Assembly: GCF_016785095.1 (NCBI RefSeq)
Contig: NZ_JAEKJB010000004.1
Location: 124,001-188,000, forward strand
Direction of reading: 5' to 3'
Source: Alloalcanivorax marinus
GTDB taxonomy: Bacteria; Pseudomonadota; Gammaproteobacteria; Pseudomonadales; Alcanivoracaceae
Length of the DNA: 64,000 nucleotides
Positions 3,996-15,227 of this stretch are shown here, in pieces. Numbering within the stretch: the first letter of the stretch is position 1; each line of letters begins with the position of its first letter. Below the pieces are notes generated by a model that was given only the letters and a program-made list of their open reading frames with translations, had not been told where the DNA came from and did not search any database. The position numbers were made by a program, and so were the translations under genes.

Positions 3996-4024
3996 TAAAA
4001 AACCCCGGTATGTGAACCGAGGTT
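3996..4024 (-). terminator. Hairpin plus T-run between tRNA-Gly and tRNA-Cys
   Basis: On the minus strand AACCTCGG, an eight-base loop, then CCGGGGTT runs directly into TTTTATT. This is an eight-pair stem with one G-U pair and six consecutive Ts, the form of an intrinsic terminator, placed inside a tRNA cluster. It may limit read-through to tRNA-Cys and tRNA-Leu, or act as a processing signal. Confidence 0.6.
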
Positions 4025-4034
4025 CTTTTTAATC

Positions 4035-4110
4035 TGGAGCGGGAAACGAGATTCGAACTCGCGACCCCAACCTTGGCAAGGTTGTGCTCTACCAACTGAG
4101 CTATTCCCGC
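4035..4110 (-). tRNA. tRNA-Gly (GCC)
   Basis: 76 bases with encoded CCA. Acceptor GCGGGAA pairs with TTCCCGC, the anticodon is GCC in the loop TTGCCAA, and the D arm AGCTCAGTTGGTAGAGC is canonical. First gene of the Gly-Cys-Leu cluster, behind a strong promoter. Confidence 0.97.
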
Positions 4111-4150
4111 TTTTTTCTTCATCGTGGGCATCGCCCCGATGCGAAGCCGC

Positions 4151-4178
4151 ATTCTACCCGAGCGACCCTCTCTGTCAA
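4151..4178 (-). promoter_or_regulatory. Sigma70 promoter of the tRNA-Gly/Cys/Leu cluster
   Basis: The minus strand reads TTGACA, 16 bases, TAGAAT, then GCGGC. A perfect -35, a near-perfect -10 and a G/C-rich discriminator are typical of stringently controlled stable-RNA promoters. It lies about 40 bases before tRNA-Gly and after the pgsA stop, so the tRNAs need not depend on pgsA read-through. Confidence 0.8.
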
Positions 4179-4237
4179 GACTGTTTTTTCTGTCCTTTCA
4201 ACATCTTGGCCAAACTTTGCGCAGCCGGGGCGCGGGC

Positions 4238-4843
4238 TCAGTCACCGCCGCCAGCGGCCAGGAACTGAGGCGCGGCGGCACGCAGATAGCGCATCATGGA
4301 CCAGAGCGTGAGCACCATGGCCAGGTAGAGCGCGGCATAGCCAATCCACAGGCCCGGCGTCATGAGAATATCGCCATCGGCGCCGTGTGCCGGCTTGAGC
4401 GCCAGCAGCACGGTGATCGAGCCCATCTGCGCCACGGTCTTCACCTTGCCCACCGCGCTCACCGCCACCCGGGCACGCTGGCCGAGCTCCGCCATCCACT
4501 CACGCAGGGCGGACACGGCGATTTCCCGGCACACGATCACCATGGCCGGCACCGACAGCCAGATGGTGGCGTGCACCTGCACCAGCACCACCAGCGCCAC
4601 CGCCACGATCAGTTTGTCCGCCACCGGGTCCAGGAAGGCGCCGAACGGGCTTGTCTGACCGAGCTTGCGGGCCAGGTAGCCGTCCAGCCAATCGGTGAGG
4701 CCGGCGGCCAGGAACAGCCCGGCGGCCAGCATGTCGCTCCAGCCAAAAGGCAGGTAGAACACCGCCACCAGCACCGGAATCGCGGCCACGCGGATCAGGG
4801 TGAGGATGTTGGGCAGATTAAGAATGGGCGCGTGCTTGGACAT
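4238..4843 (-). CDS. pgsA: CDP-diacylglycerol-glycerol-3-phosphate 3-phosphatidyltransferase
   Basis: 201-residue inner-membrane enzyme making phosphatidylglycerol phosphate from CDP-diacylglycerol and glycerol 3-phosphate, the committed step to phosphatidylglycerol and cardiolipin. The CDP-alcohol phosphotransferase signature is complete at residues 51-76: DWLDGYLARK, then G and two Asp in FGAFLDPVAD. Several hydrophobic segments flank it and the length is normal. It lies 82 bases after uvrC and before the tRNA cluster, the order seen in pseudomonads. Confidence 0.96.
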   Translation of the reverse strand: MSKHAPILNLPNILTLIRVAAIPVLVAVFYLPFGWSDMLAAGLFLAAGLTDWLDGYLARKLGQTSPFGAFLDPVADKLIVAVALVVLVQVHATIWLSVPAMVIVCREIAVSALREWMAELGQRARVAVSAVGKVKTVAQMGSITVLLALKPAHGADGDILMTPGLWIGYAALYLAMVLTLWSMMRYLRAAAPQFLAAGGGD

Positions 4844-4925
4844 GAATACCGTCTGTGCCGTCGGCGAAAAAAGAAAGTATATCGGAAAGCGGCGCGGCTC
4901 TCATTCCACGACGCATTCCGGCCCG

Positions 4926-6749
4926 CTATTCATGGAACCAGTTGTACAGCGTTTCGGCGGTCTGGGCATTGATCCCTTCCACCCGCGCCAGCTCTTCCCG
5001 GGAGGCGTTGCGGAGTTGCTTGAGGCCGCCGAAGTGGTTGAGCAGCGCCTTGCGACGCTTGGGGCCCACGCCGGGGATCTCTTCCAGGCCGGAGCGGCGC
5101 GCCTTGCCGCGCCGTGCCCGGTGGCCGGTAATGGCGAAGCGGTGCGCCTCGTCGCGCACCTGTTGCAACAGGTGCAGGGCGGCGCTGGCACCGCCGGGTA
5201 CCAGTTCCCGGCCGTCGGGCAGATACAGGACTTCCAGGCCGGGACGACGGCTGGGCCCCTTGCCGATACCCATCACCAGTACCCGGTTATCCAACTGCAG
5301 CGACTGTATCACTTCGAAGCAGCGCCGCATCTGGCCCTTGCCGCCATCGATGAGCAGCAGATCCGGCAGCTTGCCCTCTTCCTTGACCACCCGCTGGTAG
5401 CGCCTGCGCACGGCTTCCTCCAGGGCTTCGTAATCATCGCCACCGTGCTCCGGGTTGACGTTGAAACGGCGGTAATCCGCCTTGCGCGCGCCCTGCTGAT
5501 CGAACACCACGCAGGACGCCACCGCCCGCTCGCCCCGGGTATGACTGATATCAAAGCACTCGATGCGACGGATGGAGGCGTCCGCCTCGAGCAGGGTTTC
5601 CAAAGCGTGGAAACGTTCCTCCAGGTGCTCCCGGGCCGCCAGATCACCGACCAGCGACTGCTCGGCGTTGGTGCGCGCCATGTTCAGCCAGGCGAGGCGC
5701 TGGCCGCGAACCCGGTGGGCCAGCCGGATGCGCCGCCCGAGCCGGGTTTGCAGAGCTTCCTGCAGGGCCTCCTGGCCGGGCAGGGCCTCCGGCAGCACCA
5801 CCTCGTGGGGGATCGACTGGTCATCGCGCTCGCCCAGGTAGTACTGGGCCAGAAACGCCTCCAGGATCTCGGTGAGATCCTCCTCGCCACGGGTATCCGG
5901 GCGGAAGCTGCGGTGCCCGAGCACCCTGCCCTGGCGCACCATCAGCACCTCCACCACCGCCAGGCCGTGACGGGCGGCCACGGCCACCGCATCCACATTG
6001 CCACCGCGATCGGTCTCCACGTTCTGCTTCTGCTGCACGGACTGGATGGCGGCCAGCTGGTCGCGCAGCTCCGCGGCGCGCTCGAAATCCAGGTTGGCGG
6101 CGGCCTGCTCCATCTCGGCGGTGAGCTGGTCGGTGACCGCGCGGCTGCGACCGGAGAGAAAATCCATGGCCAGGCGCACCTGCTCGGCGTAGGCCTCGCG
6201 GCTTACCGCCCCCACGCAGGGCGCGGTGCAGCGGCGAATCTGATATTGCAGGCAAGGCCGGGTTCGGTTACGGAAGAAGCTGTCGCGGCAGTTGCGCACC
6301 CGGAACACCTTTTCCACCAGGGCCAGGGTATCGCGCACGCTGCCGGCACTCGGGTAAGGCCCGAAGTAGCGGCTGCCGGGCCGGCGCTTGCCGCGATGGA
6401 AGGTGATGCGCGGGTAGTCGTCCGAGCTGGTGATCTTGATGTAGGGGTAGGATTTGTCGTCGCGCAGCAGAATGTTGTAGGGCGGTCGCAGTTCCTTGAT
6501 CAGCGACTGCTCAAGCAGCAGCGCCTCCGCCTCACTGCCGGTGACCGTGGTCTCCACGCCGGCGATGCGCGACACCAGGGCCCGGGTCTTGGCGCTGGCC
6601 AGATTTTTCTGGAAATAGCTGCCCAGGCGGGCCTTGAGGTCGCGGGCCTTGCCCACGTACAGCACCTCGCCGGCGGCACCGATCATGCGGTAAACGCCCG
6701 GCTTGCGGGCGCAATGGGCCAGAAACTGCTTGGCGTCGAACTCGGGCAA
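4926..6749 (-). CDS. uvrC: Excinuclease ABC subunit C
   Basis: 607-residue nuclease that makes both incisions in UvrABC nucleotide excision repair. N-terminal GIY-YIG domain (residues about 12-90: KPGVYRMIG, EVLYVGKA), the UVR motif that contacts UvrB near residue 200 (LDFERAAELRDQL), the RNase H-like endonuclease domain from about 370, and C-terminal helix-hairpin-helix repeats (LEEIPGVGPKRRKALL). The start codon is TTG, preceded by ACGGAGCCGTTC. It lies 74 bases after uvrY, so the two may be co-transcribed as in other gammaproteobacteria. Confidence 0.97.
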   Translation of the reverse strand: MPEFDAKQFLAHCARKPGVYRMIGAAGEVLYVGKARDLKARLGSYFQKNLASAKTRALVSRIAGVETTVTGSEAEALLLEQSLIKELRPPYNILLRDDKSYPYIKITSSDDYPRITFHRGKRRPGSRYFGPYPSAGSVRDTLALVEKVFRVRNCRDSFFRNRTRPCLQYQIRRCTAPCVGAVSREAYAEQVRLAMDFLSGRSRAVTDQLTAEMEQAAANLDFERAAELRDQLAAIQSVQQKQNVETDRGGNVDAVAVAARHGLAVVEVLMVRQGRVLGHRSFRPDTRGEEDLTEILEAFLAQYYLGERDDQSIPHEVVLPEALPGQEALQEALQTRLGRRIRLAHRVRGQRLAWLNMARTNAEQSLVGDLAAREHLEERFHALETLLEADASIRRIECFDISHTRGERAVASCVVFDQQGARKADYRRFNVNPEHGGDDYEALEEAVRRRYQRVVKEEGKLPDLLLIDGGKGQMRRCFEVIQSLQLDNRVLVMGIGKGPSRRPGLEVLYLPDGRELVPGGASAALHLLQQVRDEAHRFAITGHRARRGKARRSGLEEIPGVGPKRRKALLNHFGGLKQLRNASREELARVEGINAQTAETLYNWFHE

Positions 6750-6823
6750 GAACGGCTCCGTCGGGTCGCGATGGGGGCATCGAATGATGGCGCCGCGCGG
6801 GAAACTGTCAAGGGCCCGACGGT

Positions 6824-7477
6824 TCAGGCCGGATTGAGCTCGTTGGCGTCCACCATGCCGTGGCGCACCGCCACCAGGGCCATTTCCACGTCGCTGCTGA
6901 TGCCCAGTTTATCGAAGATGCGATAGCGGTAGGTATTCACCGTTTTCGGTGACAGGCAGAGCTGATCGGCCACGTCCTGGACCTTATGACAGTTCACGAT
7001 CAGCATCATGATCTGCAATTCCCGCTCGGAGAGCATGTCCAGGGGCGCGTGGTGGGTCGGCACGTAGGGCCGCAGCGCCATGGTCTGGGCGATCTCGGGG
7101 CTGATGTAACGCTGCCCCGCGTTGACCACCTTGATGGCCCGCAGCATCTCATCCAGATCCGCGCCCTTGCTCATGTAGCCGGCGGCGCCGGCCTGCATCA
7201 ACCGGGACGGGAACGGCTCGTCCTCGCACACGGTCACCGCGATCACCCGCACCCCGTCGTCCTGGCGCAGCATGCGCCGGGTGGCTTCCAGGCCACCAAT
7301 GCCCGGCATCTTGATGTCCATGAGCACCACATCCGGGTTAGACTCCCGGGCCAGGCTCACGGCGTCCTCGCCGGAACTGGCCTGGGCGACCACGCGAATC
7401 CCTTCCTGGTCATCAAGCATACGGGCGATGCCCGTTCTCACCAGGTCGTGGTCGTCGACCACCATTACCTTGATCAT
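6824..7477 (-). CDS. uvrY: Response regulator UvrY/GacA
   Basis: 217-residue two-component response regulator of the GacA/UvrY type, partner of a GacS/BarA kinase not in the window. Receiver domain with the acidic pair Asp8-Asp9, phospho-acceptor Asp54 (VVLMDIKMPG) and conserved Thr and Lys. A C-terminal LuxR-type helix-turn-helix spans about 145-210 (LSERELQIM, LCLSPKTVNTYRYRI). In this family it activates small RNAs that titrate CsrA/RsmA. Placement before uvrC is the classic context. Confidence 0.95.
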   Translation of the reverse strand: MIKVMVVDDHDLVRTGIARMLDDQEGIRVVAQASSGEDAVSLARESNPDVVLMDIKMPGIGGLEATRRMLRQDDGVRVIAVTVCEDEPFPSRLMQAGAAGYMSKGADLDEMLRAIKVVNAGQRYISPEIAQTMALRPYVPTHHAPLDMLSERELQIMMLIVNCHKVQDVADQLCLSPKTVNTYRYRIFDKLGISSDVEMALVAVRHGMVDANELNPA

Positions 7478-7588
7478 TGTTCTACTCCCCCACTTGGCGT
7501 CCCTGACAGTGGCTGTTCAGAAGAGTCCAAGACTAGCGCGACGGCGCTCTCCTGCCTAGGCCCCCGGCCAACCCTCGACCTTGGTCGT

Positions 7589-7627
7589 ATTGACGCCCCC
7601 TTTGCGGGCGATTCGATTGACGCCCCC
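7589..7627. repeat. Direct repeat upstream of cstA
   Basis: ATTGACGCCCCC occurs twice, at 7589-7600 and 7616-7627, a 27-base period, within the 207-base gap between uvrY and cstA. The spacer contains GCGGGCG, which can pair with the first CGCCCCC. This could be a regulator site or a local duplication; nothing identifies a binding protein. Confidence 0.5.
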
Positions 7628-7684
7628 GGACACCGGCGCCATCCTGGCGCTCGGAATGGCAGAACCAATCACAAGGACAAACAA

Positions 7685-9364
7685 ATGAGCGCAATATTGC
7701 TTCTGGTTCTCGGCCTGGGTGGCATGGCCGCGGGCTACTTTTTCTATTCCCGTTTCATCGCGGCCAAGGTCTATCAGCTTGATCCCGACTTCCGCACGCC
7801 GGCCCACGAATTCGAGGACGGCGTGGACTTCGTGCCCACCAACCGATTCGTGCTCTGGGGCCACCACTTTACCTCCGTGGCCGGGGCGGCACCCATCGTC
7901 GGGCCGGCGATCGCGGTGATCTGGGGCTGGTTGCCGGCGTTCCTGTGGGTGGTGCTGGGCACCATCTTCTTCGCTGGCGTACACGACGCCGGCGCGATCT
8001 GGGCAAGCGTGCGTAACCGCGCCAAGTCCGTCGGCGCCCTGACCGGCGAGGTGGTCGGCGGGCGCGCCCGCAGTGTGTTCATGATCGTTATCTTCCTGGT
8101 GCTGTTGATGGTCAACGCGGTGTTCGGCGTGGTGATCGCCAAACTGCTGATCAACAACCCCGGCGCGGTGGTACCGGTGTGGGGCGCGATCGCCGTGGCC
8201 CTGGTGATCGGCCAGTTGATCCGCCGCCGCGTCATTGGCCTCGGGCTGGTTTCCGTGCTCGGCGTGGCCTGCCTGTACGGGCTCATCTTCCTGGGGCCGC
8301 AGGTGCCGGTAGCACTGCCGGAGACGGTGGGCGGCCTGTCCGCCAACGCGGTCTGGATTCTGATCCTGTTCGGCTACGCGGCCATCGCCTCCCTGCTGCC
8401 GGTATGGATGCTGCTGCAACCCCGGGACTACATCAACGGCCTGCAGCTGTTCGTGGGCCTGATCCTGCTGTACGCGGCGGTGCTGATCGGTAACCCCACC
8501 GTGGTGGCGCCGATGATCAACTTCGACGCGCCAGTGGGTACGCCGTCCATGATTCCGCTGCTGTTCGTGACCATCGCCTGCGGCGCCATCTCCGGCTTCC
8601 ACGGGCTGGTCGCCTCGGGCACCACTTCCAAGCAGCTCAACAAGGAAACCGATGCCCGCTTCGTGGGCTACTTCGGCGCCGTGGGCGAAGGCGCCCTGGC
8701 GCTGGCCGCGATTCTCGCCGCCACCGCCGGCTTCGCCTCCCTGGCGGACTGGCAGGCGGTCTATTCCGGGTTCGGCCAGGGCAGCCTGACCGCCTTCGTG
8801 GACGGCGGCGCCGCCATTCTCAGCGGTGGCACCGGGCTCGATGCCGAGGTGGCCGCCACCCTGCTCACGGTAATGGCCGCCCTGTTCGCCGGCACCACCA
8901 TGGACACCGGCCTGCGTCTGCAGCGCTACATTTTCCAGGAATGGGGCGAGATCTATGATCAGGCGTGGATGCGCAAGCCGTTCCCGGCCACCATGCTGGC
9001 GGTGATCAGTTGCCTGGTGCTGGCGTTCGGCGCCGGTGGCGCCGACGGCTCCGGCGGCCTGCTGATCTGGCCTCTGTTCGGCACCACCAACCAGTTGCTC
9101 GCCGGTCTGACCCTGCTGGTGATCACCGTGATGCTGGTGCGGCGCGGGCGTCCCACCTTCTACACGTTGGTGCCGCTGGTGTTCCTGCTGCTGATGACCC
9201 TTGCCGCGCTGCTGATCCAGCTCAAGGGCTTCTACACCGACGAGAATTGGTTCCTGCTGGGCCTGGACCTGGTGGTGCTGGTGGCGGCGGTTCTGGTGAC
9301 CCTGGAGTGCGCCGCCGCCCTGCGTCGCCATAAACGCCTGCACCAGGAGGAGGCGCGCTCTTGA
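7685..9364 (+). CDS. cstA: CstA-family peptide/pyruvate carrier
   Basis: 559-residue polytopic inner-membrane protein of the carbon starvation CstA family, whose studied members take up peptides or pyruvate. The N-terminus has the family stretch DGVDFVPTNRFVLWGHHFTS followed by AGAAPIVGPAIAVIWGW, and further on FHGLVASGTTSKQL, GTTMDTGLRLQRYI and WPLFGTTNQLLAGLT. It is shorter than the roughly 700-residue E. coli CstA, ending soon after the last helices. The ATG at 7685 follows AAGGACAAACA; a longer upstream reading lacks family similarity. Its stop overlaps the next gene, so the three-gene operon is translationally coupled. Confidence 0.92.
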   Translation: MSAILLLVLGLGGMAAGYFFYSRFIAAKVYQLDPDFRTPAHEFEDGVDFVPTNRFVLWGHHFTSVAGAAPIVGPAIAVIWGWLPAFLWVVLGTIFFAGVHDAGAIWASVRNRAKSVGALTGEVVGGRARSVFMIVIFLVLLMVNAVFGVVIAKLLINNPGAVVPVWGAIAVALVIGQLIRRRVIGLGLVSVLGVACLYGLIFLGPQVPVALPETVGGLSANAVWILILFGYAAIASLLPVWMLLQPRDYINGLQLFVGLILLYAAVLIGNPTVVAPMINFDAPVGTPSMIPLLFVTIACGAISGFHGLVASGTTSKQLNKETDARFVGYFGAVGEGALALAAILAATAGFASLADWQAVYSGFGQGSLTAFVDGGAAILSGGTGLDAEVAATLLTVMAALFAGTTMDTGLRLQRYIFQEWGEIYDQAWMRKPFPATMLAVISCLVLAFGAGGADGSGGLLIWPLFGTTNQLLAGLTLLVITVMLVRRGRPTFYTLVPLVFLLLMTLAALLIQLKGFYTDENWFLLGLDLVVLVAAVLVTLECAAALRRHKRLHQEEARS

Positions 9365-9645
9365 AGAGCGCGCCCATCGTCGGCCGGCTGAAGCGCTGGT
9401 ACCGGCACGCCAGCCATTGGGGGGCGGAGTATTACAACGCCCCCTACCGGGCCGCCATCGCCCGCGCCCGGCGCGACGAGGAAGACCTGTTCATGCTGCT
9501 GGTGTTCGCCGAGACCCTCGGCATTCCCAACCCGGTCGGCTGGTACACCCTGGAGTTGCAGCCTCTGCTGCTGGACCGTTTCCACGACTGGCACCGGCGC
9601 ATGGGGCTGCCCCATTCCCCCCTGGATCAATTCCGCTGCTGCTGA
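9361..9645 (+). CDS. Small cory-CC-star-type protein
   Basis: 94-residue soluble protein rich in aromatic and basic residues (RWYRHASHWGAEYYNAPYR near the N-terminus, then GIPNPVGWYTLELQP) that ends in RCC directly before the stop. That terminal Cys-Cys is the mark of the small 'cory-CC-star' family, which I recall as occurring beside CstA-type carriers. The start is TTG, overlapping the cstA stop by four bases and preceded by CAGGAGGAGG. Its own stop overlaps the ATPase start (TGATG). Function is unknown; a terminal Cys pair could bind metal or a thiol partner, which is inference. Confidence 0.8.
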   Translation: MKSAPIVGRLKRWYRHASHWGAEYYNAPYRAAIARARRDEEDLFMLLVFAETLGIPNPVGWYTLELQPLLLDRFHDWHRRMGLPHSPLDQFRCC

Positions 9646-10652
9646 TGACCGATCTCGATTTCACCACTTTACTGCAACAGCGGCGCCTTCTGATGGTGGG
9701 TGGCAAGGGAGGCGTCGGCAAGACCACCACCGCCGCCGCCCTGGCCCTGGCCGCCGCCGGCCAGGGCCGGCGGGTGCTGCTGGTCTCCACCGACCCGGCG
9801 CACAGTCTGTCCGACGCCTTCGACCGGGAAATCGGTGACCGGGAGACCGCCCTGGCGCCGAATTTGTTCGGCCTGGAAATCGACCCGGATCACGAAGTGG
9901 ACGCCCACCTGGATACGGTACGCGCCCGCATGGCCCGCTTCGCCGCCCCGGACCAGCGCCCGGAGCTGGAACGCCAACTGCGGCTCAGCCGCCAATCCCC
10001 CGGCGCCCAGGAAGCGGCGTTGCTGGAGCGGCTGACCACGCTGATGGATCAGGTCGATGACTACGACCTGATGGTGTTCGACACCGCCCCCACCGGCCAT
10101 ACCCTGCGCCTGCTCAGCCTGCCGGAAGTGATGGCCGCCTGGACCGAGGGCCTGCTACGCCAGAACCGGCGCGGCGAGGAATTGGGCAAGGTGCTCAACC
10201 ACCTGACCCCGGGCCGCGATCTGGACAGCCTCACCGAGGAACCGGAACAGCGCGAATTGGCCGACCTGGATGAGCGGGCCCGCGGCCTCGCCGCGCCGCT
10301 GCTCGAACGCCAACGGCGTTTTCACCGCGCCCGCCGGCGCTTGCAGGACGCCGCCCACAGCGGCTTCCTGTTTGTATTGACCCCGGAGAAGCTACCGATC
10401 CTGGAAACCGAGCGGGCGGTGGCCAGCCTGGCGGACGCCGGCATCCCGGTGGCCGGCGCCATCGTCAACCGGGTGCTGCCGGACGACGCCGAAGGGGCCT
10501 TCTTCCGCGCCCGCAGAGAGCGGGAACAACGTCACCTGGCGGACATCGAGGCACGCCTCGGCGCCCTGCCCCGTCACCATCTGCCCCTGCTCGCCGACGA
10601 CATCCATGGGCTGCAAGCACTGGAGGCCTTCTCTAGCCGGCTGCTGTCCTGA
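9645..10652 (+). CDS. ArsA/GET3-like P-loop ATPase
   Basis: 335-residue soluble ATPase of the ArsA/TRC40/GET3 class. Deviant Walker A GGKGGVGKTTTA with the signature Lys at residues about 19-30, the switch STDPAHSLSDAF, the DTAPTGHTLRLL motif and the VNRVLP base-recognition segment. It is a single ATPase unit, unlike the duplicated ArsA of arsenite pumps, and no arsA/arsB/arsR gene is near, so arsenite export is unlikely. Four-way coupling (cstA, CC-terminal protein, ATPase) suggests it energises, inserts or regulates the carrier, which is inference. Confidence 0.88.
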   Translation: MTDLDFTTLLQQRRLLMVGGKGGVGKTTTAAALALAAAGQGRRVLLVSTDPAHSLSDAFDREIGDRETALAPNLFGLEIDPDHEVDAHLDTVRARMARFAAPDQRPELERQLRLSRQSPGAQEAALLERLTTLMDQVDDYDLMVFDTAPTGHTLRLLSLPEVMAAWTEGLLRQNRRGEELGKVLNHLTPGRDLDSLTEEPEQRELADLDERARGLAAPLLERQRRFHRARRRLQDAAHSGFLFVLTPEKLPILETERAVASLADAGIPVAGAIVNRVLPDDAEGAFFRARREREQRHLADIEARLGALPRHHLPLLADDIHGLQALEAFSSRLLS

Positions 10653-10802
10653 CGTCCGCGGGCTCCAGATGGCAACGGAAAGGATTGCCCCGTTCCAGGT
10701 GATTTCCTCATCAAGAGTCCGGCCCATCAGTGTCTCGTTGGTTCATCACATCCCGCCTGGAGCGCGTATACTGTCGCCCAAGCCAGGTTTTTCGAGGTAT
10801 CT

Positions 10803-11489
10803 ATGCCCGCGTCCAAAAGCAGCCCATTCGCTCCGGTCCGCCGCCGCTCCATGGAGGAAGAAGTCTATCTGCGAATGCGCGAGGCGATCCTGCAGGGCGA
10901 CCTGCCTGGCGGGGAGCGCCTGGTGCAGGAGGACATCGCCCAGCGTTTCGGTACCAGCCGCATCCCGGTGCGCGACGCGCTGCGACGGCTGGACGCGGAC
11001 GGTTTGGTGGAAGCCGGAGCCCGGGGCGTCTACAGCGTCACCCGCTTCGGGCCGGACGACCTCAAGGAGGTCTACGCCCTGCGCGAACTGCTGGAAGGCC
11101 ACCTCGCCGCGCATGCCTGCGAACACCTGGGCGCGGAGGCCCTGGACGAGCTGGAACAGCTCCAGGAAGAAATGGAGCATGCCCAAGCGAACCAGGACGC
11201 GGAGGCCTATGTGGCACTCAACCAGCGCTTCCACCGCGCGCTGTACGATGCCGCCGCCCAGCCACGCACGGAAAAGATCATTCTCTCGCTGTGGCAGGGC
11301 ATTCCGCCCCTGACGCCGCTCACCATTGAACACCGCATGGAGGAATCCAGCCGCGAGCACCGCGCCATCATCGCCGCGCTGCGTGCCGGCGACAGCGCCG
11401 GTGCTGGACAGGCGATGCGCGCCCACATCGCCACCGCCGGTCGAGCGCTGCTTGACCATGTGGCCCGTGGCGAGGTGAACCTGCGTTGA
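10803..11489 (+). CDS. GntR-family (FadR/FCD type) regulator
   Basis: 228-residue regulator. Winged helix-turn-helix at residues 20-85 (VQEDIAQRFGTSRIPVRDAL), then an all-helical FCD effector domain with conserved metal-binding type residues (RFHRALYDAA, EHRAIIAALRAGD, MRAHI). FCD regulators usually repress catabolic operons and bind organic acids or acyl-CoAs. It faces the 3' end of the 12-gene acyl-CoA operon, a likely target. GTATAC at 10766-10771, about 30 bases before the start, repeats the unit of the 29520-29539 element, so self-binding is possible. Confidence 0.9.
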   Translation: MPASKSSPFAPVRRRSMEEEVYLRMREAILQGDLPGGERLVQEDIAQRFGTSRIPVRDALRRLDADGLVEAGARGVYSVTRFGPDDLKEVYALRELLEGHLAAHACEHLGAEALDELEQLQEEMEHAQANQDAEAYVALNQRFHRALYDAAAQPRTEKIILSLWQGIPPLTPLTIEHRMEESSREHRAIIAALRAGDSAGAGQAMRAHIATAGRALLDHVARGEVNLR

Positions 11490-11490
11490 T

Positions 11491-11519
11491 GACCGGCGCT
11501 CTCAGGAGACACGCCGGTC
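11491..11519. terminator. Hairpin between convergent gntR and ligase genes
   Basis: GACCGGCG (11491-11498) and CGCCGGTC (11512-11519) are perfect inverted arms around a 13-base loop, placed exactly where the two convergent genes end. There is no T-run on either side, so it may block read-through weakly or only protect 3' ends. Confidence 0.35.
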
Positions 11520-13058
11520 CCGGCCCCGCCAGTACGGCTCGCGTAGCACGTTTTTGAGAATCTTGCCGGCCCCGGACAACGGCATCTGGTCCCGATATTC
11601 CACTGAGCGCGGGCACTTGTAACCGGCCAGTTCCTGGCGACAGAAGTCACACAGCTCGGCCTCGGAGGCCCGCGCGCCTTCCCGCAGCACCACGACGGCA
11701 TGGACACTTTCGCCCCACTGGGCATGCGGCACGCCGATCACCGCGCAACTGACCACCGCCGGATGACGCGCGAGTCGGTTTTCAACTTCCGCGCAGTACA
11801 CATTCTCGCCACCACTGACAATCATGTCCTTGAGGCGGTCAACGATGTAGATATAGCCGCCCTCGTCCATGTAACCGCCGTCGCCGGTGTGCAGCCAGCC
11901 ATCACGCAGCACCTCGGCGGTCTGCGCCGGCTGGTTCCAGTAACCGAGCATGATGTTGTCACCGCGGGCGATGACCTCGCCGATTTCACCGCGCGGCAGC
12001 TCGGTGCCACTTTCGTCGACGATCCGCACTTCCAGGCCCCAACCGGCGCGCCCGGCGGATTTAACCCTGCCGTTGCGTAACGCCTCACCCTGGTGATTCC
12101 ACCAAGGGTTCACGGTGATCACCGGCGCGGCCTCGGTCATGCCGTAGGACTGCATGAAACGAGCACCGGGAAGTGCCGCCATGGCCCGCTCCAGCAGCGG
12201 CAGGGACATTGGCGAGGCACCGTAGGTCACCGTTTGCAGCGCACTCAGGTCATGAGCCGCGAACCCGGGGTCATCCACCATCATCTGGATCATGCTCGGC
12301 ACCAGAATCACATCGGTGACCTTTTCCCGGGCGATCGCCGCCAGAGCCTTCTCGACCCGGAAACCAGGCAACACCACCGAGGTGCCACCCACGATCAGCT
12401 GCGAAACCAACTTACCAAGTCCGGCGGTATGGAACAGGGGTACCGCCATCAGCGTCACGAAGGGTGACGGTACCTCCGTTTCCGCCAGCCGCCCCACCGC
12501 CGAACTCCACAGATTGGAATGCGAGAGCATCACCCCCTTGGGAAAGCCGGTGGTACCGCCGGTATACAGGATCACCGCCAGTTCCTCGCCGTCGGCGCGC
12601 CGGTCCGACACCGCCTGCGCCGCGGCAAGCCAGGGCTCGTAGGGTATGAGTCCCGGCGGTGTCGGCTCACTCCCCACATGAATGATCCTCTCCAGCGCGG
12701 GGCATCGCTGCCGCAACTCCGGCACCCGCTCCAGAAACTCGTCGTCGACCAGCAACACCCGGGCACCGCTGTCCGCCAATGAATAGGCCATCTCCTTGAG
12801 GCTCCAGCGAGTATTGACCGGATTGGCCACGAACCCGCCCCACCAAAGGCCGGCGAAGTAATCCCAGTGCGTCGCGCCGTTGAGCGCCAGAATCGCCACT
12901 CGATCACCGGGCTTGAGGCCGGCCTCGGCGAGCGCCCCGGCAAGGCGCGCACATCGGTCCGCTAGGGTCCGGTAATCACGGCGCAGACCATCATCGATGA
13001 CCGCCGTTCGCTCGGGAAACTGCTGTACCGCCCGGTGCAGGCCTTGCGTCAGGTACAT
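11502..13058 (-). CDS. Acyl-CoA synthetase (AMP-forming)
   Basis: 518-residue ANL-superfamily ligase that would activate a carboxylic acid to its CoA thioester with ATP. Phosphate loop YTGGTTGFPKGV (residues about 168-180), SYGMTEAAP, the TGDGGYMDEGGY core with IVDRLKDMIVSGGENVY at the hinge, and the C-terminal catalytic Lys in LSGAGKILKN. Last gene of the minus-strand catabolic operon, 11 bases after the Bug receptor. The substrate cannot be fixed from sequence; medium-chain or branched acids are typical for this subgroup. Confidence 0.92.
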   Translation of the reverse strand: MYLTQGLHRAVQQFPERTAVIDDGLRRDYRTLADRCARLAGALAEAGLKPGDRVAILALNGATHWDYFAGLWWGGFVANPVNTRWSLKEMAYSLADSGARVLLVDDEFLERVPELRQRCPALERIIHVGSEPTPPGLIPYEPWLAAAQAVSDRRADGEELAVILYTGGTTGFPKGVMLSHSNLWSSAVGRLAETEVPSPFVTLMAVPLFHTAGLGKLVSQLIVGGTSVVLPGFRVEKALAAIAREKVTDVILVPSMIQMMVDDPGFAAHDLSALQTVTYGASPMSLPLLERAMAALPGARFMQSYGMTEAAPVITVNPWWNHQGEALRNGRVKSAGRAGWGLEVRIVDESGTELPRGEIGEVIARGDNIMLGYWNQPAQTAEVLRDGWLHTGDGGYMDEGGYIYIVDRLKDMIVSGGENVYCAEVENRLARHPAVVSCAVIGVPHAQWGESVHAVVVLREGARASEAELCDFCRQELAGYKCPRSVEYRDQMPLSGAGKILKNVLREPYWRGRDRRVS

Positions 13059-13068
13059 GGCTCGCTCC

Positions 13069-14034
13069 TTAATCCAGCGTCAAACCGGCGTCATCGATGA
13101 TGCCGCCCCAGACCTGGCTGTCCCGTTCCACCCGGTCGACGAACTGGTCATGGGGAGTTCCTTCCATGATCAGGCTCAGCTTTCCCATGCGCTCGACCAC
13201 GGACGGTTCCGCCACCGCCGCCATCAACGCATCGGATATCTCCGCCACCACCGGCTCCGGCATGCCGCTCGGACCGAACACGCCAAACCATCCCTGGTAG
13301 TTCATGCGCTCGAATCCCTGTTCCTGGAAGGTCCTGACCTCCGGCAATTGTGGCAGGCGTTTTTCACCGGTGACCCCGAGGGCGCGCACCTGGCCGTCCT
13401 CGATCAATGGCAAGGCACCCTTCCCTGACATGAACACCATGGGAATCTGTCCCGCCAACAGCTCATTGACGGACGGCGCCTCGCCGCGAAAAGCCACATG
13501 GATCAGGTCCAGATCGTTCTGCTCGCTGAAAACATGGCCATACAAATGGGCGCTTGAACCGGCGCCGTAGGTGCCATAGAAGGCATCGTCGGGATGGGCA
13601 CGCACATGCTCGACGAATTCGCCCGCGTCGTGAACATCGAGATCAGAGCGCACCACCATCAGCAGGCTGGTGGTGGCGATACCGGCCACCGGCCTCAGCG
13701 CTTCCATCGGGTCGACCTTAACGTTCGGGTAGAGATGCGGCGCCTGAATCAAGGCGATATTGGGCAACAAAAGGGTATGCCCATCCGGCTGGGCCTGGGC
13801 CACGTACTCGGTGGCGATCATGCCCGCGGCACCTGATCGATTGTCCACCACCACGGGCACTCCCCAGCGCTCGGACAGCTCCTGACCCAGGGTGCGGGCG
13901 AGAATGTCATTGGCGCCGCCGGGCGGGTATGGCACCACGATACGCACCTCCTGGTCGGGAAAACCGGCGCGGGCAAACGGTACCCAAAGGATAAAGAAGG
14001 AGGCCATCAAAGCGTGTAGCAAACGAGTCTTCAT
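13069..14034 (-). CDS. Bug-family tripartite tricarboxylate receptor 1
   Basis: 321-residue periplasmic solute-binding protein of the Bug/TctC family. Signal peptide of 23 residues (MKTRLLHALMASFFILWVPF, then ARA), followed by the family signature IVVPYPPGGANDILAR and VVDNRSGAAGMIATEYVA. Of three consecutive ATG codons the third is chosen because it sits seven bases from AAGGAG. It would deliver a carboxylate to a TctA/TctB membrane unit; the only such unit in the window is at 24746-26756. It is embedded between enzyme genes of the operon. Confidence 0.9.
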   Translation of the reverse strand: MKTRLLHALMASFFILWVPFARAGFPDQEVRIVVPYPPGGANDILARTLGQELSERWGVPVVVDNRSGAAGMIATEYVAQAQPDGHTLLLPNIALIQAPHLYPNVKVDPMEALRPVAGIATTSLLMVVRSDLDVHDAGEFVEHVRAHPDDAFYGTYGAGSSAHLYGHVFSEQNDLDLIHVAFRGEAPSVNELLAGQIPMVFMSGKGALPLIEDGQVRALGVTGEKRLPQLPEVRTFQEQGFERMNYQGWFGVFGPSGMPEPVVAEISDALMAAVAEPSVVERMGKLSLIMEGTPHDQFVDRVERDSQVWGGIIDDAGLTLD

Positions 14035-14075
14035 CATCATTCTCCTTGTTATCGTGATGATCATGGACACGACGT

Positions 14076-15227
14076 TCAGCCGGCTTCTCGCATCATGTTG
14101 CGGGCGATCACCAATTGCTGAATCTGGCTGGTACCCTCGTAAATCCGGAACAGACGGACGTCCCGATAAAAGCGCTCGATTCCGTATTCGGACATGTAGC
14201 CGGCGCCACCATGAATCTGTACCGCGCGGTCAGCGACCCGACCGCACATCTCCGAGGCGTAGTACTTGCAGCAGGAGGCCTCGGTGGCCACGTTCTCTCC
14301 CAGATCGCGGCGCCGGGCCGCGTCCATGACCATGCAGCGGGCCGCGTAGATCTCAGTGCGGCAGTCAGCGAGCATCGCCTGCACAAGCTGGAACTCCGCC
14401 ACCGCCTGACCGAACTGTTTGCGCTCCATGGCGTAGCGCAGGGCGTCATCGAGCATGCGTTCGGCGACGCCGACACAGATCGCGGCGATATGAATACGCC
14501 CCTTCTCCAACACCTTCATCGCGGTGCTGAAGCCTCGGCCGGGCTCGCCGCCGATGATATTCTCCGCCGGCACCCGGCAGCCATCGAACACCACGTCACA
14601 GGTGTGCGCGCCGCGCTGACCCATCTTGCGGTCCGGCTTGCCAAGGCTGATACCCGGGCTGCACGCATCGACGATAAAGGCCGACACGCCCTTGTGTCCG
14701 GGCTGGTCCGGCTCGCTGCGCGCCATCAACGTGAACACGCCGGCGTGCGGCGCATTGGTGATGTAGCGTTTGGTGCCGTGGATCACATAGTCGTCACCAT
14801 CGCGCACCGCCCGGGTGGTGAGTGACGCCGCGTCGGAACCGGCCTCCGGCTCGGTAAGCGCGAACGAAGCGATCAGTTCGCCGCTGGCGAGCCGGGGCAG
14901 CCATTCTCTTTTCTGCGCCTCGGTGCCGTCCATGAGGATGCCCTGGGACCCGATGCCCACTGTGGTGCCGAACAGGGAACGGAACGCCGGCGATGTTTTG
15001 CCCATCTCGATCATCACCAGAGCTTCCTCTTCCATGGTCACGCCCAGGCCCCCGTATTGTTCAGGAATGGTAAGACCAAACAGCCCGATCTCCTTCATTT
15101 GGCGGACCACGTCGTCCGGAATTTGATCATGCTCCGCCACCCACTCTTCCCTGGGCACCAGGGTATCCCGAACAAAGCGACGCACCGTGTCGAGCAGCGC
15201 CGTCATGGTTTCCTGATCACGAATCAT
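14076..15227 (-). CDS. Acyl-CoA dehydrogenase
   Basis: 383-residue FAD-dependent acyl-CoA dehydrogenase, introducing an alpha-beta double bond into an acyl-CoA. Signatures are FALTEPEAGSDAASL, the FAD/substrate segment MERKQFGQAVAEFQLVQ, QIHGGAGYMSEYGIER and the catalytic-base Glu in RIYEGTSQIQQ. The ATG at 15227 follows GGGAGAAAGGC; upstream residues in the same frame come from the hydratase gene. It overlaps the upstream enoyl-CoA hydratase gene by 11 bases, so it is co-translated. Short/branched-chain specificity is the usual guess for this subtype. Confidence 0.94.
   Translation of the reverse strand: MIRDQETMTALLDTVRRFVRDTLVPREEWVAEHDQIPDDVVRQMKEIGLFGLTIPEQYGGLGVTMEEEALVMIEMGKTSPAFRSLFGTTVGIGSQGILMDGTEAQKREWLPRLASGELIASFALTEPEAGSDAASLTTRAVRDGDDYVIHGTKRYITNAPHAGVFTLMARSEPDQPGHKGVSAFIVDACSPGISLGKPDRKMGQRGAHTCDVVFDGCRVPAENIIGGEPGRGFSTAMKVLEKGRIHIAAICVGVAERMLDDALRYAMERKQFGQAVAEFQLVQAMLADCRTEIYAARCMVMDAARRRDLGENVATEASCCKYYASEMCGRVADRAVQIHGGAGYMSEYGIERFYRDVRLFRIYEGTSQIQQLVIARNMMREAG

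Follow-up and report, generated by a model that had tools for sequence, protein, structure and literature searches.

The window, a 64,000-nucleotide stretch of Alloalcanivorax marinus DNA, contains three plus-strand genes at positions 7685-10652 that overlap stop to start. The first (7685..9364; ATG at 7685, stop TGA at 9362-9364) encodes a CstA-family carrier of 559 amino acids that belongs to a short clade. The second (9361..9645) begins with a TTG codon at 9361, which is preceded on the same strand by a Shine-Dalgarno-like element (AGGAGGAGG, 9345..9353; a good match as read from the sequence), and encodes a 94-residue cory-CC-star protein, called cory below, with the C-terminus DQFRCC; the codons for its terminal Arg-Cys-Cys (9634..9642) are followed directly by the TGA stop (9643-9645). 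The third (9645..10652; ATG at 9645, stop at 10652) encodes a 335-residue, single-domain ATPase of the ArsA/GET3/TRC40 family that lacks cysteine, and its deviant Walker A motif (P-loop), GGKGGVGKTT, occupies 9699..9728. Both overlaps described in an earlier, sequence-only reading of this DNA (TTG/TGA at 9361 and TGATG at 9643) were confirmed. Searches of the genome with family profiles at E ≤ 0.001 returned a single CstA gene (its frame matched in two pieces), a single cory gene, one full-length and six short partial matches to PF02374, and no YbdD-family match, and no ars gene was recognised by eye among the open reading frames (ORFs) at positions 4000-15000. Adjacent genes for CstA, a protein of ~90 codons and a single-domain ATPase constitute the layout of the CstA-CstX-ArsA operon.

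The carrier matches the CstA family (PF02554) with an E value of 4.7e-137 and 458.5 bits, compared with a Pfam gathering threshold of 27. Its score against NF011590, the pyruvate/proton symporter CstA equivalog, is 242.2 bits and does not reach the cut-off of 1188, so the protein receives no equivalog assignment and its substrate can only be inferred. The small protein scores 126.7 bits against NF041419 (CC_star_Cory; curated cut-off 80), which bears out the earlier assignment of a 94-residue protein ending in RCC to the cory-CC-star family, NF041419 being, like NF033934 (see below), a curated name only. For the ATPase, the scores are 268 bits against TIGR00345 (GET3_arsA_TRC40; cut-off 135), 248.6 bits against PF02374 and 147.2 bits against the arsenite ATPase model arsen_driv_ArsA, the last below its cut-off of 650. 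It had been read correctly as unduplicated, with one domain and one GGKGGVGKTT motif. The P-loop is kept in all 79 aligned ATPases (the 80 loci described below, minus L031 and L045, in which the best ORF has no P-loop, plus the window sequence), and STDPAHSL.D and the switch II motif DTAPTGHTLRLL are kept in at least 97%.

The sequence-only reading had called this CstA shortened to 559 residues; the length holds, but the protein is not shortened, since the uncut cory-linked CstAs examined are 554-585 residues long (one with a frame break has 494). CstAs linked to YbdD are longer, at ~650-704 residues. The window CstA groups in a clade with the cory-linked CstAs in a tree built from 76 of 86 rows, ten near-duplicate CstAs being omitted. 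One row of this tree, L050b, is labelled lone, yet its gene lies 1.4 kb further along, immediately behind the ATPase gene of the same cluster. Cys299 is present in every row of an alignment of partnered and lone CstA types, and the other cysteines depend on the type (91% of the cory type have one at position 443, all of the YbdD-CC type one in the column at 504). A carrier cysteine common to the partnered types but missing from the lone ones was also sought, and none exists in this alignment.

Conservation of the three genes was assessed at 80 loci, the best of at least 564 cory relatives and a set that leans to close ones. An ATPase frame follows cory on the same strand at all 80, and cstA precedes it at 79, the contig of the 80th beginning 111 bases ahead of the cory frame. 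Cory was present in 7 of 378 genomes of the phylum, and near-full-length ATPase matches were present in the same 7, always adjacent (at most five ATPase candidates were scored per genome). Three plasmids, two alphaproteobacterial and one from Cytobacillus, carry the trio as well, and the linkage spans several families and reaches another phylum. No wider neighbourhood is conserved with it, the commonest neighbour family occurring at 16 of the 80 loci (ORFs of at least 100 residues, up to four per side). Partners commonly encoded far from cstA, which the sequence-only reading had named as the observation that would speak against its proposal, were not what we found across the 80 loci and 378 genomes. 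Both cory and the ATPase are missing from the genomes of four short-clade CstAs (L157-L160) that fall within the cory clade of the tree, a pattern that probably reflects joint loss of the two partners. Distances among the three proteins correlate over 73 loci (r 0.65-0.83; the highest of 300 shuffles gave 0.11), the CstA-ATPase pair giving the highest value (r 0.83). Common descent alone gives correlated distances of this kind. Together, linkage, joint presence and absence, and correlated divergence strongly support the view, already put forward in the earlier reading, that CstA, cory and the ATPase form one functional unit.

Operons of this type were described by Castillo and Saier in 2010 (PMC2963123). 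According to the accessible sections of that paper, they contain the same three kinds of gene as the present locus, with a single-domain ATPase of ~330 residues and a CstX protein of ~90 residues that is missing from 2 of 26 CstA-ArsA operons, and the tabulated ATPases include one of 347 residues from Alcanivorax sp. DG881, whose locus is L046 in our set. By size and position, cory matches CstX. The same sections call CstX (cluster 14 there) a single-TMS protein, whereas cory looks soluble or peripheral from its sequence, its 19-residue hydropathy being at most 1.36 in 80 proteins and not clearly that of a membrane-spanning protein. In the proposal of Castillo and Saier, the ATPase supplies CstA with energy and CstX links the two; both the trio and the concept of an ATP-assisted CstA have thus been on record since 2010, and what the sequence-only reading put forward as a new kind of ATP-assisted carrier complex had already been published. 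Our search of the open-access literature naming the parts found no experiment on an ATP-assisted CstA, and the term YbdD was searched for in PMC2963123 without a hit.

The Cys-Cys end of cory is constant, being present in 80 of 80 relatives (the best 80 of at least 564). It is not a background feature, because cory is the only one of 355 mechanically called ORFs of at least 60 residues in the window to end in CC, and none of 501 neighbour ORFs does so. For folding, the window protein was aligned with 56 of the 80 relatives; helices are predicted at residues 4-26, 30-53, 59-62 and 67-81, and a comparison with the PDB gave five matches, none with E ≤ 0.001. Pattern matches to cory relatives in viral contigs numbered 65, none of which was confirmed.

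A point of comparison is E. coli, in which pyruvate uptake needs both CstA and YbdD (accessible sections of PMC5847655) and a predicted CstA-YbdD complex scored above its authors' cut-off (accessible sections of PMC11188072). As at the present locus, a CstA-family carrier is accompanied by a small protein encoded immediately beside it; unlike here, the CstA is long, YbdD has 65 residues and no detectable similarity to cory, and there is no ATPase. YbdD-family genes adjoin long cstA genes, the distance being at most 1 kb for 64 of the 69 matches (a comparison with the 84 CstA rows of ~490 bits or more among the matches listed). Among 56 distinct YbdD-family proteins, those of the loci studied out of the 69 matches, 51 end in CC and 5 in CPC. 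The matches listed also include 11 strong CstAs of the long type whose genomes lack YbdD; 10 of these proteins themselves end in RCC, and the 11th is cut off by the contig end. The terminal motif of cory therefore recurs with two further types of CstA. Some CstAs have no dithiol partner: none lies downstream at L157-L169, L171, L188, L189, L191 and L200-L202, where the cory and YbdD profiles matched none of the frames.

Homology between cory and YbdD was not detected (best local hhalign E value 0.086 over 11 columns, global 0.97), and cory has no Pfam match to PF04328 (Sel_put, YbdD/YjiX), so their equivalence rests on position and tail. Cory and YbdD/YjiX share a gene beside cstA and a C-terminal dithiol, which is an argument for working alike and not for family membership, and cory is probably the counterpart of YbdD. 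Mutual exclusion of the two was considered as a statistical argument and dropped, as it is not significant (0 of 7 genomes with both, P 0.28). The shared tail gives no account of the ATPase, since YbdD systems have no such ATPase. A YbdD-family protein scored 63.1 bits against NF033934 (KCU-star selenoprotein; cut-off 85), a name that hints at reactive chemistry; selenocysteine forms were not found (none of 185 genomes from the class had a match above the KCU-star cut-off, and none of the 16 matches contains an internal stop). The shared C-terminal dithiol is not mentioned in the accessible passages of the papers cited.

We give about an even chance to the reading that this operon encodes a carrier together with a dedicated accessory pair, in which the ATPase gates CstA via the dithiol subunit. 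CstA would be a LeuT-fold secondary carrier, probably importing pyruvate or a similar small nutrient, as judged from E. coli CstA. Cory would be a small helical accessory subunit, the counterpart of YbdD/YjiX, that contacts the carrier directly and presents its C-terminal dithiol (RCC) to it. The ATPase would be dedicated to this subunit, and its ATP-driven opening and closing may load, activate or remove the dithiol subunit on CstA, such that it would gate CstA as opposed to serving membrane insertion.

Rather unlikely, in our judgement, is an ATP-driven pump in which the ATPase, joined by the small protein, powers CstA as ArsA does ArsB. This is the published proposal, drawn from operon and tree comparison of 26 instances (accessible sections of PMC2963123). 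The intact ArsA-family motifs and the strength of the CstA-ATPase correlation favour it. Within the 378 genomes and the candidates scored, however, the ATPase never turned up without cory, so CstAs that are lone or partnered by YbdD manage without it. Moreover, the CstA model predicted from an alignment of the window protein and 25 other sequences resembles LeuT/APC-fold carriers, and LeuT-fold carriers are a class driven by ion gradients.

The ATPase has its family and motifs in common with ArsA of ArsA-ArsB and with GET3/TRC40, but it has one domain and no cysteine where ArsA has two domains and a thiol metalloid site, and it lacks the CxxC and the hydrophobic, Met-rich client groove of GET3. 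GET3-like targeting, in which it would chaperone and insert CstA or another membrane client with cory as adaptor, is accordingly improbable. Its closest PDB relatives after ARSA1 are full-length matches to the single-domain proteins 3zq6 and 3ug6, which we take to be archaeal Get3 homologues. Against this, CxxC occurs in 0 of 79 ATPases, the positions aligned with the CxxC of 3zq6 reading GAFF, and region 166-235, aligned to the Met-rich helices of 3zq6 and 3ug6, is polar and Met-poor (median 1 Met, range 0-3, vs 5 and 7; hydrophobic fraction 0.30 vs 0.40 and 0.37). These features weaken the GET3-like insertion route suggested by the sequence-only reading, as do a cory that is not clearly membrane-spanning (despite the single-TMS CstX of PMC2963123) and a CstA that is polytopic, not tail-anchored. 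We regard as more doubtful still an ArsD-like handling of metal, metalloid or sulfur, in which the cory Cys pair would deliver sulfur or a soft metal to the ATPase or accept it from there. The operon does combine vicinal cysteines with an ATPase of the ArsA family, and on the Cytobacillus plasmid genes for a metal-sensitive regulator and a TusA/DsrE-type sulfurtransferase follow within 4 kb; yet cysteine is absent from 49 of 79 ATPases, that of the window included, so there is no ArsA-type thiol site, no ars gene is annotated flanking the three plasmid loci examined, and the same tail marks YbdD-family proteins, whose carrier takes up pyruvate (accessible sections of PMC5847655). Finally, gene overlap is often a matter of translational coupling and nothing more, but linkage across several families and another phylum and the apparent joint loss of cory and the ATPase make it very improbable that the three genes are merely co-transcribed and act separately.

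Extending the gating reading to the family as a whole, we consider it possible, at somewhat less than an even chance, that a C-terminal dithiol is a widely used working part of CstA-type carriers, supplied from three unrelated sources (YbdD/YjiX, cory-CC-star/CstX and the carrier's own C-terminus), and that the cory branch recruited an ATPase of the ArsA family to time dithiol engagement with the carrier, giving a secondary transporter gated by ATP and possibly by redox state. Partners of other CstA-family carriers have the same double-Cys tail as cory, which offers a simple experimental entry: with cory tied to YbdD by the terminal dithiol, the question can be put to the test in E. coli K-12. 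Should the tail prove necessary, YbdD, cory and the RCC-tailed CstAs would all be accounted for by a single mechanism, and the contribution of the ATPase would be the sharp question that remains.

The genes for CstA, the cory-CC-star protein (cory) and the ATPase lie on the plus strand of the window at 7685-9364, 9361-9645 and 9645-10652 and encode 559, 94 and 335 residues, respectively; the sequence agrees with the positions and stop-to-start overlaps given in the sequence-only reading. Profile searches identified CstA as PF02554 (E 4.7e-137), cory as cory-CC-star (NF041419, 126.7 bits against a cut-off of 80) and the ATPase as a member of the ArsA/GET3/TRC40 family (TIGR00345, 268 bits against a cut-off of 135). 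The window CstA and its counterpart in Alloalcanivorax profundimaris are 97% identical, which makes an origin of the window in that genus probable. At E <= 0.001, the whole genome contains one CstA gene, one cory, one full-length and six short ArsA_ATPase matches, and no match to the YbdD family (Sel_put). A CC terminus occurs in one of 355 mechanically called ORFs of the window and in none of 501 neighboring ORFs in related loci, against which background the terminal cysteine pair of cory is unusual.

The trio is one conserved unit. A scan of genome contigs yielded at least 564 cory relatives, and among the best 80 of these an ATPase frame always follows cory on the same strand within about 150 bases, while cstA lies 5' of cory in 79; in the sole exception (L019), the contig begins 111 bases ahead of the cory frame. 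Every one of these 80 cory proteins has a CC terminus (RCC in 69, KCC in 10 and SCC in 1). The ATPase is split between two reading frames in loci L031 and L045, as is CstA in L045 and L058, which may reflect sequencing errors or decay. Cory is present in seven of 378 genomes sampled across the phylum, and an ATPase search of the 378 (E <= 1e-25, up to five candidates scored per genome) gave matches in ten: the same seven, in which they are near full length and adjoin cory, and three with partial matches in other frames of 277-592 residues. The co-occurrence of the three families, which the sequence-only reading had proposed to examine, was found both as linkage and across genomes. The three proteins have diverged in a correlated manner (r 0.65, 0.83 and 0.65 over 73 loci; highest of 300 shuffles 0.11), as would also be expected from common species history alone. 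Plasmids of Pseudochrobactrum, Paracoccus and Cytobacillus spongiae carry the trio as well (three examined of six plasmid matches), the last species belonging to another phylum. In the Cytobacillus locus (L187), an unnamed 95-codon gene (4633-4920) with no NCBIfam match separates cstA and cory, and genes for a metal-sensitive regulator and sulfurtransferases lie downstream (7783-9501).

Divergent from cstA in the window is a LuxR-type response regulator gene (6824-7477, minus strand), whose product we take from its sequence to resemble UvrY/GacA; its relatives are the commonest neighbor, at 16 of the best 80 of at least 564 loci. UvrY/GacA feeds the Csr system, and Csr controls E. coli cstA. 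A putative regulator encoded past the ATPase gene (10803-11489, plus strand) is presumably of the GntR family.

Both the gene arrangement and a bioinformatic hypothesis on its function have been published before. Castillo and Saier (PMC2963123) describe 26 operons that combine CstA with an ArsA homologue; 24 of these also encode a ~90-residue protein, which they named CstX. They place the 347-residue protein of Alcanivorax sp. DG881, whose locus is in our set (L046), in cluster 18. They propose that CstA is energized by ArsA with CstX linking the two, which anticipates the ATP-assisted carrier complex that the sequence-only reading had considered new. Among the open-access papers searched, we found no other paper mentioning CstX alongside CstA or ArsA, no experimental test of this proposal, no occurrence of "cory-CC-star", and "carbon starvation protein" together with ArsA only in PMC2963123 and a Pseudomonas genome paper.

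Seven PDB structures match the predicted CstA model (pLDDT 69, pTM 0.76) at E <= 0.001. Each is a carrier that we take to have the LeuT/APC fold, although the TM-scores by query are modest (0.33-0.40). A preprint table also assigns CstA to that group (PMC10862720). The cory model (pLDDT 78, pTM 0.52) comprises three long helices and has no significant PDB match, and its top 19-residue Kyte-Doolittle hydropathy (1.31; range 0.82-1.36 over 80 proteins) does not suggest a membrane span. All 79 rows of the ATPase alignment have an intact P-loop, and each of the two switch motifs is kept in at least 97%; CxxC occurs in none of the 79, and 49 lack cysteine entirely. Because the region matching the Met-rich helices of two archaeal homologues is polar and Met-poor (median 1 Met, range 0-3, versus 5 and 7) and retains conserved H186, L187, P189, R222 and R230, we infer that a fixed partner docks there and not a hydrophobic client.

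A second small partner, found with long-type CstAs, is YbdD (YbdD/YjiX, PF04328). CstA and the adjoining 65-residue YbdD are both required for constitutive pyruvate uptake in E. coli K-12, uptake dropping to 13% and 20% of the wild-type level (PMC5847655). A microprotein survey predicts a CstA-YbdD complex above its cut-off (PMC11188072), and two other papers report YbdD and CstA as a gene pair (PMC8477406, PMC13356812). The YbdD family occurs in 63 of the same 378 genomes (69 matches); 64 of these have a strong long-type CstA match no more than 1 kb away and two have one just past 1 kb, while two lie on contigs without a strong long-type CstA and one in a genome without one. Two terminal cysteines are kept in all 56 distinct YbdD-family proteins from the loci examined (51 CC and 5 CPC, the latter in L150, L156, L212, L213 and L216). 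The NCBI KCU-star selenoprotein model scored 63.1 bits against a YbdD-family protein, below its cut-off of 85. Its name implies relatives ending in Lys-Cys-Sec, a terminus that would suggest reactive chemistry; none was seen in 185 genomes of the class.

Twenty of the 84 strong CstA matches listed have no YbdD-family match within 1 kb. Eleven of these come from genomes without any such match, and ten of the eleven, all long CstAs, carry their own RCC C-terminus (L172, L173 and L192-L199); the eleventh (genome G114) ends at a contig edge. Two others are CstA-YbdD pairs spaced just over 1 kb, and seven are from genomes with the YbdD family at another place. The four of these seven examined (L171, L200, L201 and L202) have no dithiol end, own or adjoining. 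The dithiol tail is thus widespread among CstA systems, yet not universal.

In a quick maximum-likelihood tree, which has some long branches, 76 CstAs separate into a short clade of cory-linked or lone proteins and a long clade whose members are YbdD-linked, RCC-tailed or lone; the RCC-tailed proteins form a single clade. Since the lone CstAs of L157-L160 nest within the cory clade and their genomes lack both cory and ATPase, their placement reads as joint loss of the two. In L050 and L082, the ATPase of a complete trio is directly followed by another full-length CstA (7409-9091 and 7391-9094, respectively), so one cory-ATPase pair may serve two carriers.

The conserved unit, the intact ATPase motifs and the constant terminal dithiol of cory are established. 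We infer that cory is the counterpart of YbdD: it would offer its C-terminal dithiol to CstA, and the ATPase, acting via cory, would turn the carrier on and off. Against this mechanism, hhalign detected no homology between cory and YbdD, lone CstAs occur, and the observations fit energization of CstA as well as gating; mutual exclusion of cory and the YbdD family per genome was not significant (0/7, P 0.28). The names CC-star and KCU-star show that NCBI curators are aware of the motif within each family, and the open-access text available to us makes no mention of a dithiol common to both. This shared C-terminal dithiol of cory and YbdD is the part that deserves experimental test.
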